NCBI RefSeq assembly: GCF_036345015.1
Contig: NZ_CP084098.1
Coordinates: forward strand, 3,237,326 to 3,301,325
Direction of reading: 5' to 3'
DNA: 64,000 nucleotides
Source: Cyanobacterium sp. Dongsha4
Lineage (GTDB): Bacteria > Cyanobacteriota > Cyanobacteriia > Cyanobacteriales > Cyanobacteriaceae
Part shown: positions 28,567 through 35,448 of the stretch, one piece after another
How the letters are laid out: the number at the start of each line of letters is the position of its first letter
Numbering within the stretch: the stretch's first letter is position 1
Made by a program: the position numbers and the translations under genes
Notes under the pieces: generated by a model
Told to the model about the DNA's origin: nothing
Databases searched by the model: none
What the model saw: the letters and a program-made list of their open reading frames with translations, nothing else

Positions 28567-29550
28567 TAACGGTACTTAGACAAAAATTAAGCCCAAATAA
28601 ACCCTAAACTTGCTTTGTATAAGCTAAATACTCCCACGTTATCTTTTAACCATTGAAAAAAGCGAAAAGACACTGCTGTCCGAAACGCCTCTAAACCTTC
28701 TGCAAAAGTATTTAAGGGTTTATTCCCCCATTGTCTCCTTAGCCCTCCTGTCAAACGATGCCATTGAATAAAAGTATAAGCACAAAATACCAATATTAAA
28801 TGTCTCATTACACTTCTTTGTATTTCTCACTTGGTATTCTGATAAACCTAACCATCTAATTTTTCCAATAAATTAGTATTGTTGCCATAACCACCATCCA
28901 TTAAAATTATTTCAGGACAATAATTTCGGTTTAAACATTTTTCAATTAGATTAAAGGCAATTTCAGGTTTTTTTGAAATTGTGGGTCGTCTTTTCCTTCT
29001 GGGAAATTTTCCGCTTTTTCATATAATTCAACATCTAGGGGAAAACTCCTGACTCCATCATAAATATGAGTAGTGACGATGACATTGCCATTATCAGTTT
29101 TGCCAATTGGACCAATATATTGTCTTCCAACACAATCAGTAAAATTACCACTCTTACGATGACCTGAATCATCGATAATTAAAGAGAAATATCTACTTAT
29201 TTTAGTTTGACGACAAGAAGCTATTATTTCTAATCTTTGATCATTGACCTCATCATAATTCCATGTGGACTCTGTTAGAAAATGATGTAATTTATGATAA
29301 GTAATATCAAGATTATTATTGGCAATTTGAGTGATATTTTTTCTTTGAGAATCTCCTAATAAACCGCGCAAATAATTTCTAAACTCTCGTTTTTGTGCCT
29401 TTGTTTTTAAGACAGGATCTATTTTTTGACACCAGCGATTAAAACATGGGGGCATTGATGAAGAGGTGATTTCTTTCATTTTGACCTAAAAACACTATCA
29501 TATAATCATTATAAGTCAATTCTTAACATCTTTTTGTCTAAGCACCGTTA
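28567..29550 (-). mobile_element. IS701-family-like element, decayed
   Basis: The 984-base element has inverted ends TAACGGTACTTAGACAAAAA (left) and, inverted at right, TAACGGTGCTTAGACAAAAA, with one mismatch. It codes a broken DDE transposase. No matching target duplication is seen, in line with rearranged flanks: the right flank is a cysteine desulfurase fragment, while the left flank is pstS downstream DNA. Confidence 0.8.
28587..29479 (-). pseudogene. IS701-type transposase, internally deleted and frameshifted
   Basis: The N-terminal 177 codons (29479-28946) carry FNRWCQKIDPVLKTKAQKR, the first catalytic Asp segment LIIDDSGHRKSG and GRQYIGPIGKTDNG. The frame ends near 28946 at KLPLI. A second open piece (28808-28587) supplies the family C terminus, with IQWHRLTGGLRRQWG and FRFFQWLKDN. 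Normal members have about 380-400 residues, so the middle part is missing or out of frame. Confidence 0.8.
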
Positions 29551-32636: not shown

Positions 32637-33345
32637 AGAAACCTCCTACAATAGTTCCTACTTTTTCTCCTTTTACTGCACGGATTATATTACCACGCTC
32701 GAAAAGATTAAAAACAACAATGGGAATATTATTTTCCTTACAAAGTGCGATCGCAGTTCCATCCATAACCCGTAAATCGTTGGTTAAAACATGATTATAG
32801 TTTAAACTTTCATAACGACGAGCATTAGGATTAGTTACAGGATCACTATCATAAACTCCATCAACTTTAGTAGCTTTGAAAATGACTTGAGCGTCAATTT
32901 CCGCCGCCCGAAGTGCCGCAGTGGTATCAGTGGTAAAAAAAGGATTACCCGAACCTGCACCGAAAATAACCACCCTACCCAATTCTAAATGACGAATGGC
33001 TCTTCTCCTAATGTAAGGTTCAGCAACCTCCTGCATTGCGATCGCAGTTTGCACCCTAGTAGGGACATCCATTCTTTCTAAAGCATCCTGCAAAGTCATA
33101 GCATTCATCACCGTAGCAATCATACCCACATAATCCGCAGTGGCGCGATCCATACCCTTAGCAGAAGCCTGAACTCCTCTAAAAATATTACCACCTCCAA
33201 CTACGATCGCCACTTGGACATTTTGAGCCACCACTTGAGCAATATCCTCAGCGATTTCGGCAACAACTTTGGGATCGATGCCGTAGCCTAAGTTTCCCAT
33301 TAAGGCTTCACCGCTTAATTTTAACAAAATCCGTTGGTAAGTCAT
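32623..33345 (-). CDS. pyrH: Uridylate kinase (UMP kinase)
   Basis: Phosphorylates UMP to UDP. The 240-residue protein of the amino-acid-kinase fold has KLSGEALMG near residue 9, [10 protein letters not shown] near 48, the [13 protein letters not shown] segment and [15 protein letters not shown] near 140. Length is normal. It leads the pyrH-frr operon. The upstream region is shared with the divergent phycocyanin operon. Confidence 0.97.
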
Positions 33346-33671
33346 TCCTCGGTTGCCTTCATATTCGATAAATTTTCTTCAGTTAAGATACCAGTTTTTG
33401 ACTACCATAAATTAGTTTTTTTATTAACAACTTACGATATGGATAACCAATATCCTCTCCGAATAATTAATAGGTTTTAATTTTCATTGACAAAACGCAA
33501 TAAAACTTTACTAAATTCTAGGGAAAACTGCACGGAGTTTGCACAAAGATTCTGTTTAAATAATCACCAACGTTGAACAAAGTAGAAACAACATTTAAAA
33601 ATTCAGTAATTGCAACCACTGAAAAACCTTTTTAACAAATAAAACAAAATTCATTAATCACATCGTTAATT
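33346..33671. other. Divergent region pyrH / cpcA; long phycocyanin leader
   Basis: No coding sequence, and in particular no trace of cpcB, which normally precedes cpcA. A possible sigma70 promoter is TTGACA (33487-33492) with TACTAA 16 bases further. If used, it gives a leader of about 150 bases for cpcA. Confidence 0.6.
33487..33514 (+). promoter_or_regulatory. Candidate cpcA promoter
   Basis: Perfect TTGACA -35 hexamer, 16-base spacer and a weak TACTAA -10 hexamer. Position fits a leadered phycocyanin transcript; the poor -10 leaves it uncertain. Confidence 0.35.
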
Positions 33672-34160
33672 ATGAAAACACCTTTAACCGAAGCAGTATC
33701 CAGTGCTGATTCTCAAGGACGCTTCTTAAGCAGTACCGAAATTCAAGTGGCTTTTGGACGTTTTCGTCAAGCTACAGCAAGTTTACAAGCCGCTAAGTCT
33801 TTAACTGAAAATAGCGGCAGATTAATTCAAGGAGCGGCTCAAGCTGTATATCAAAAATTCCCTTATACCACCCAAATGCAAGGAGCAAACTTTGCCGCAG
33901 ACCAAAGAGGGAAAGATAAATGTGCAAGAGATATTGGCTACTATCTCCGTATGGTTACATACTGCCTCGTTGCCGGTGGTACTGGCCCTATGGATGAATA
34001 TTTAATTTCTGGTATTGAGGAAATTAACCGCACTTTTGATTTATCTCCTAGTTGGTACGTTGAAGCCCTCAAATACATCAAGGCAAATCACGGCTTAAGT
34101 GGTGACCCTGCTGTAGAGGCTAATTCTTACATTGATTATGCTATTAACGCTTTAAGTTAA
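33672..34160 (+). CDS. cpcA: C-phycocyanin alpha subunit
   Basis: The light-harvesting alpha chain of phycocyanin in phycobilisome rods. The 162-residue protein matches CpcA throughout: [20 protein letters not shown] start, [20 protein letters not shown] with chromophore-binding Cys84, [16 protein letters not shown], and [13 protein letters not shown] near the end. It carries the usual globin-like helices. It leads cpcC and cpcD. The beta gene, which almost always precedes it and forms the alpha-beta heterodimer, is absent. Thus cpcB must be elsewhere if this alpha chain is functional. No frame damage is visible. Confidence 0.97.
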
Positions 34161-34232
34161 AGCTAATTCATGTCTTTTTAATTAATTTATTTAATCCCAA
34201 ATACAACAAATACTTAAGGAGGAAAAAACATC

Positions 34233-35093
34233 ATGGCTATTACTGCCGCCGCATCTCGTTTAGGTGTATCTGCATTTAACGACTTCAAACCCGTAGAATT
34301 GCGCCCTAACTGGACAAAAGAAGAAGCTCAAGTTGCCATTAATGCTGTTTATAAGCAAGTTCTTGGTAACGACTATATCATGAAATCCGAGCGCCTTTCC
34401 AATGCAGAATCTTTATTATGTAATGGTTCAATTACAGTTCGTGATTTTGTGCGTATGGTAGCGAAATCTGAACTTTACAAAAATAAATTCCTTTACAACA
34501 ACTTCCAAACCAGAGTCATCGAACTCAATATTAAGCACTTACTCGGAAGAGCTCCTTATGATGAGTCTGAAGTGATTGAGCATTTAGACTTATATCAAAA
34601 TGAAGGTTATGAGGCTGATATTGACTCTTATATTGACTCTGAAGAATATAGTCGCAGTTTCGGGGAAAATGTTGTTCCTTACTACAGAGGATTCAATACT
34701 CAACCTGACCAAAAAACTGTCGGTTTTACCCGTATGTTCCAATTATATCGTGGCTATGCCAACAGCGATCGCGCCCAAGTTGGTGGAAATAAATCCCGTT
34801 TAGCATCCGAATTAGGACGTAATAGCGTTTCTGCGGTAGTAAATCCCTCTGGAAGCGGTGAAGGTTGGGCATATCGTCCATCTACTAAAGGTGTTACTCC
34901 CAATCAAACCTTCAGAAATTCTACCCGTGAAGGACGTGTTTATCGTATTGAAGTAGCGGCGATGAATTTACCCCGTTATCCCAAAGTGCGTCGTATTAGC
35001 CGTGAGTGGTTAGTACCTTACGAAGACTTATCCACCACTTTACAGAAAATCCAAAAAATGGGCGGAAAAGTAGCTAGTATTACTTTAGCGTAA
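34233..35093 (+). CDS. cpcC: Phycobilisome rod linker polypeptide CpcC
   Basis: Linker that joins phycocyanin hexamers in the rod. The 286-residue protein has an N-terminal PBS-linker domain (about residues 20-150, with [18 protein letters not shown] and [17 protein letters not shown]) and a C-terminal CpcD-like domain (about 228-286, ending [15 protein letters not shown]). The central basic [15 protein letters not shown] is also typical. A strong Shine-Dalgarno AAGGAGG (34216-34222) sits ten bases before the ATG. It follows cpcA after 72 bases. Only one rod linker is encoded here, where many operons have two. Confidence 0.95.
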
Positions 35094-35122
35094 TTATTCA
35101 ACTATCATGGAGGTTAAAAAAA

Positions 35123-35392
35123 ATGTTAAGTACATTAGTTAGTGGTAGTTCCTATTCTCCTGCTAAAAATCGTGTTTTCGTCTATGAAGTCACAGGCTTA
35201 AAGCAAAGTGGAGAAAACGACAAAAATAACTATGCTTTCCGTAAAAGTGGCAGTGTGTTTATTCAAGTGCCTTATGCTCGTATGAATGAAGAAATGCAAC
35301 GCATTAATCGCATGGGAGGCAAAATTATCAATATTAGTCCCCTTGTTATCTCTGAAGGCGGAAACGATGATAACGGTAATTCCGAAGAATAA
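35123..35392 (+). CDS. cpcD: Phycobilisome rod-capping linker CpcD
   Basis: Small cap that ends the phycocyanin rod. The 89 residues form one CpcD domain: RVFVYEVTGLKQSGEND, SGSVFIQVPYARMNEEM and INRMGGKIINISPL. The C terminus has an acidic GGNDDNGNSEE tail. A GGAGG ribosome site (35109-35113) lies nine bases before the ATG. It is third and last in the operon, ending before a strong terminator at 35420-35448. Confidence 0.95.
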   Translation: MLSTLVSGSSYSPAKNRVFVYEVTGLKQSGENDKNNYAFRKSGSVFIQVPYARMNEEMQRINRMGGKIINISPLVISEGGNDDNGNSEE

Positions 35393-35419
35393 ATAATTTA
35401 TCTCGAATAAATTAACATT

Positions 35420-35448
35420 AGCATGGGCTTTTTGTCCGTGCTTTTTTT
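35420..35448 (+). terminator. Rho-independent terminator of cpcA-cpcC-cpcD
   Basis: A nine-pair stem (AGCATGGGC / GTCCGTGCT, two G-U pairs), loop TTTTT, and a run of seven T residues, 28 bases after the cpcD stop. Confidence 0.9.

Follow-up and report, generated by a model that had tools for sequence, protein, structure and literature searches.

The three-gene phycocyanin operon at positions 33346-35448 of the window, that is, of the 64-kb stretch of DNA analysed here (C1:3237326-3301325 of genome G000; 4.32 Mb, 5 contigs, 100% complete), is well supported as the remnant of a cpc2-type operon by the phylogeny of its rod linker and by its L-box promoter. On this evidence cpcB2 and the first linker gene were lost, whereas cpcA2, the gene for the second linker and the cap gene remain behind their L-box promoter. 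We consider it probable that this remnant works from an RcaC-box promoter, which would set the levels of CpcC and CpcD and add a minor amount of CpcA2, for which the main cpcBA operon would supply the CpcB partner. CpcA and CpcB are almost always encoded together, and a conserved, selected cpcA without a cpcB is therefore a ready-made case for asking whether two alpha isoforms can share a single beta chain within the phycobilisome. The arrangement also shows a chromatic-acclimation system coming apart: the pigment, the sensor and the beta gene have been lost, and what is left are the linkers and the response regulator together with the site it binds. No report of such an arrangement was found in the open papers searched, most subscription papers being outside that search.

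Gene content of the operon and the main cpcBA pair

The first gene of the operon, cpcA2 (33672-34160, + strand), is complete and encodes a phycocyanin alpha isoform of 162 amino acids in which the bilin-site region KCARD is retained; the product matched the C-phycocyanin alpha model NCBIfam TIGR01338 over residues 2-162 with 311.7 bits (cut-off 269.45). It is followed on the same strand by cpcC (34233-35093), which encodes a 286-residue rod linker of the CpcI2 type, the second linker of cpc2 operons, with the domains PBS_linker_poly (PF00427) and CpcD (PF01383), and by cpcD (35123-35392), which encodes an 89-residue rod-cap linker (NF058509, 127.9 bits; cut-off 80). All three genes, named from curated models, are intact. 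The operon contains this one linker gene and no first linker of the H2 type, and no further CpcC was found in the genome. A hairpin resembling an intrinsic terminator, with a 9-pair stem and a following T run, lies at 35420-35442 (+ strand). The consensus scan saw one terminator-like hairpin against 1.7 expected in shuffles, which taken by itself is not above chance, and the feature is accordingly supported by its position rather than by its score.

On the 5' side the neighbouring gene is a divergent pyrH ending at 33345, which leaves a gap of 326 bases to cpcA2. Searching this gap by tblastn with 104 CpcB proteins detected neither cpcB nor a remnant of it, the best match covering 16 residues (E 0.02). 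The initial observation of an intact cpcA followed by one rod linker and a cap, with cpcB missing in front and leaving no trace in the leader, is thus confirmed by the curated models and the gap search. Elsewhere in the window, an ORF that resembles part of a transposase (28946-29479) was seen by eye; a PstS-like gene flanks it on one side and, on the other, a fragment similar to the C-terminus of a NifS-type aminotransferase, into whose gene it may have inserted.

A search of the whole genome for cpcB and cpcA found a single cpcB and a second cpcA, both approximately 170 kb from the window operon. The cpcB gene (C1:3100670-3101185) is directly followed by cpcA1 (C1:3101256-3101741), and together they form an ordinary cpcBA pair (C1:3100670-3101741) with no adjoining linker gene. 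Because this pair holds the only cpcB of the genome, the window operon is not a split operon, and it is not a mere duplicate either. The proposal that cpcB was moved away from cpcA2, leaving a true split operon, would account for the presence of one cpcB only; it is very probably wrong, since the single cpcB is accompanied by cpcA1 in a complete, ordinary pair common to all family genomes, and cpcA2 is not the family cpcA. We give still less credence to a recent duplication of the main-operon cpcA or to an assembly artefact. The genome does hold a second cpcA next to a cpcB, as a duplication would require, and the two CpcA proteins are 84% identical, but cpcA2 is no copy of cpcA1: dS between the two genes is about 1.15, and cpcA1 forms a starred family clade from which cpcA2 is excluded. 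An assembly error is unlikely because the sister species G001 shares the arrangement, gene order and proximal leader included, in a different genomic context. Of the 26 differences that separate CpcA1 from CpcA2, 22 are fixed in the genus, mostly within residues 57-82 close to the bilin site, and the two isoforms are thus kept distinct.

In whole-genome searches the window cpcC was the only peripheral rod linker gene found (PF00427), and the window cpcD the only free CpcD (PF01383). The remaining matches to the CpcD-domain and rod-linker models were a 402-residue ORF and a small ORF beside apcAB, which from size and context would be PetH and ApcC, together with a 929-residue three-repeat protein and a 264-residue ORF, on the same grounds probably ApcE and CpcG. 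A CpcB query, which picks up CpeB-like genes (about 50%) in g2, g4 and some g5 genomes, found no beta subunit of phycoerythrin, the green-light alternative in CA3, in G000 or G001.

Linker phylogeny, promoter and origin of the operon

A tree built from 117 linkers places the window CpcC within a starred clade of nine (support 100/97) that is made up solely of second linkers from L-box operons of the cpc2 type (cpcB2A2-H2-I2-D2). These sequences come from Mastigocoleus, Okeania, a Calothrix, a Richelia, a Xenococcaceae MAG and G002, the latter a 67%-complete MAG of a different genus within the same family. CpcA trees were weakly resolved; in these, cpcA2 lies outside the starred and supported family cpcA1 clade, and its own place is poorly resolved.

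G002 carries a full cpcB2-A2-C-C-D operon in addition to a cpcBA pair of the family type, and the remaining family genomes in which cpcA was detected have cpcBA only, their rod linkers being encoded elsewhere in the genome and sharing 40-45% identity with the window CpcC. G001, the sole other species of the genus examined, has cpcA2-cpcC-cpcD in one place and cpcBA elsewhere; cpcB2 is absent there too, and both G000 and G001 have one cpcB per genome, within the main pair. Both cpcB2 and the first rod linker have been lost in the genus. At the other cpcA loci examined (80 named ones, plus those in genomes of the family and the order), cpcB immediately precedes cpcA, the sole exception among the 80 named cyanobacterial loci being a second copy that is truncated where its contig ends. 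The surroundings of the operon differ between G000 and G001, homology ending approximately 197 bases 5' of cpcA2, which suggests that either the cpcA2-cpcC-cpcD unit or its neighbours moved.

The stretch that forms the operon's promoter and 5' leader (33475-33671, + strand) is conserved in G001, with homology starting at about 33475, and the surroundings of the L box share homology with the promoter of the G002 cpcB2 gene. The L-box-like direct repeat CTGCACG-GAGT-TTGCACA (33528-33545, + strand), which has the pattern of an RcaC site, lies 126 bases 5' of the cpcA2 ATG. Located 3' of it is TTTAAAT (33555-33561, + strand), a candidate -10 element whose position is conserved in G001, G002 and the Okeania locus L062. 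Scored against TTGCACA-N4-TTGCACA over 14 positions, the window L box matches at 12, with both mismatches in the upstream half-site, and it is the sole site with at least 12 matches in the 64-kb window. It is kept in G001, where the core TGCAC and TTGCACA are identical and one spacer base differs, and the corresponding L box 5' of the G002 cpcB2 scores 13/14. Among the cpcB upstream regions checked, L boxes of 13-14/14 occurred solely 5' of cpc2-type operons, and one further member of the clade containing the window CpcC has an L box at 11/14.

The leader can also be aligned beyond the L box itself. A blastn comparison with G002 returned 73 bp at 75% identity (E 1e-9), and the block consisting of CAATAAAACTTTAC, the L box and TTTAAAT can be aligned with the promoters 5' of cpcB2 in G002 and Okeania (L134, L062). 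The leader is thus what remains of the former promoter of cpcB2. The distance from the L box to the start of cpcA2 is 126 bases in the window versus 820 in G002, where cpcB2 lies between. With up to two mismatches allowed, the L-box pattern occurs at 25 sites in G000 and 31 in G001, and from the genome-wide site density about 0.002 chance occurrences would be expected per 326-base stretch on either strand. No claim of an L-box regulon is made for either genome from these 25 and 31 sites. That the leader is random noncoding DNA is ruled out by its conservation and by the L box, and the same conservation supports the earlier suggestion that it may act as an independent promoter.

Among described systems, the closest likeness is to the cpc2 (PC2) operon cpcB2A2H2I2D2 of Fremyella/Tolypothrix-type CA3, with which the window operon shares an L box 5' of a phycocyanin gene, an I2-type second linker and a terminal cap gene, and whose setting it shares through an RcaC orthologue in the genome and a separate, linker-free main cpcBA. 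Unlike that operon, the one in the window lacks cpcB2 and the first linker and has an imperfect upstream L-box half, and G000 is without a detected RcaE, RcaF or phycoerythrin beta subunit. The gene order cpcA-cpcC-cpcD is also that of the canonical cpcBACD operon of the Synechocystis and Arthrospira type, from which the window operon differs by the missing cpcB and by a main cpcBA that lies elsewhere and is linker-free. The second alternative of the preliminary description, a specialised additional operon, therefore proved apt, and linker phylogeny and the L-box promoter further show which kind of operon it is, namely one of the cpc2 type in truncated form.

RcaC and the proposed control of the operon

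In PMC8256508, which cites Li et al. 2008, phosphorylated RcaC is described as binding L boxes and activating cpc2 under red light in Fremyella-type CA3, with RcaE and RcaF feeding RcaC. An RcaC orthologue is encoded in G000 (C1:4070021-4071916). It belongs to a clade (support 100/100) that consists of exactly G000, G001, G002 and G032, all four of which have an L-box operon. A 647-residue regulator of G008 was rejected as an RcaC, being 30% identical and placed on a far branch. While G002 carries an rcaC-rcaF-rcaE cluster, neither rcaF nor rcaE is found around the G000 rcaC, and searches of the G000 and G001 genomes found no orthologue of RcaE (best match 37%, confined to generic similarity in the kinase region) or of RcaF (best match 41%, of generic receiver similarity; the G002 and G032 proteins share 71%). 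The G000 RcaC retains the Asp of its N-terminal receiver and the His of the Hpt domain. In the C-terminal receiver, the two species of the genus both carry Glu (LEIEMP) instead of the phosphoacceptor Asp, and the RcaC branch is long, so that RcaC signalling may have changed or faded.

According to the mechanism that we favor, RcaC would act on the L-box promoter through a kinase other than RcaE or without light input. The resulting transcript would provide the only peripheral rod linker and cap found in the genome, and whatever drives the promoter would thus probably set rod length, that is, how many rods gain a second phycocyanin hexamer. CpcA2, made in a smaller amount, would pair with CpcB from the main cpcBA operon and replace part of CpcA1 in the outer disc. 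We infer from the sequences that the operon may at present be under light control, and likewise that RcaC may bind the L box today, that it may receive a signal and that alpha chains may be exchanged.

There is a considerable chance, somewhat short of even, that the operon has the same origin but that the L box and RcaC control are defunct, the promoter being constitutive or answering to another regulator and cpcA2 being merely the first gene of a linker transcript. The failure to find RcaE and RcaF, the long branch and altered C-terminal receiver of RcaC and the imperfect upstream half of the L box would all fit such a loss of control, but it would leave unexplained why TGCAC and TTGCACA are conserved across both species despite a change in the spacer, why RcaC keeps the N-terminal Asp and the Hpt His under purifying selection, and why RcaC and the L-box operon co-occur. 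We put forward, only tentatively, that the operon may belong to a so far undescribed way of acclimating to light, chromatic or otherwise, that needs neither phycoerythrin nor RcaE. In it an orphan RcaC, served by another sensor, would switch rod length through the sole CpcC and CpcD and would exchange the alpha isoform while the beta chain stays the same.

Selection, predicted output and proposed partner of CpcA2

Between G000 and G001, dN/dS was 0.05 for cpcA2 (23 nucleotide changes), 0.04 for cpcC and 0.09 for rcaC; the value of 0.25 for cpcD rests on only 8 changes. These ratios indicate that the operon is under purifying selection. Between the two species, dS of cpcA2 is below that of rcaC. 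A codon index trained on just three genes gave 0.52 for cpcA2, 0.54 for cpcC and 0.76 for cpcA1 against a background of 0.42 (sd 0.06), and the codon bias of cpcD is likewise above the window background and well below that of cpcA1. Clear ribosome-binding sites precede cpcC, cpcD, cpcB1 and cpcA1, and no Shine-Dalgarno match was found upstream of cpcA2 in either species. The missing ribosome-binding site suggests that CpcA2 output would be modest relative to the linkers, which would limit the number of unpaired alpha chains.

The same missing site could be taken to mean that cpcA2 is a decaying passenger that yields no useful protein, only cpcC and cpcD being kept, and the lack of a dedicated beta partner, which would leave surplus alpha chains unpaired, points in this direction as well. 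We regard this as unlikely, given that cpcA2 is intact in two species with a dN/dS of 0.05 over 23 changes, that its dS is lower than that of rcaC, that its codon bias exceeds the background and that the bilin-binding region is conserved. The favored reading, in which a minor CpcA2 shares the CpcB of the main operon, would have a parallel in the phycobiliproteins of cryptophytes, in which a single beta chain is common to several alpha chains. The likeness is that alpha genes outnumber beta genes and that alpha isoforms are encoded away from beta, and the difference is one of separate origin, the cryptophyte alpha chains not being CpcA homologues and the window arrangement having arisen via gene loss from an operon.

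A cpcD gene outside a cpc operon, within a few hundred bases of the CpcD-domain gene of petH type, was observed in nine family genomes (G003, G005, G006, G008, G009, G011, G012, G013 and G014).
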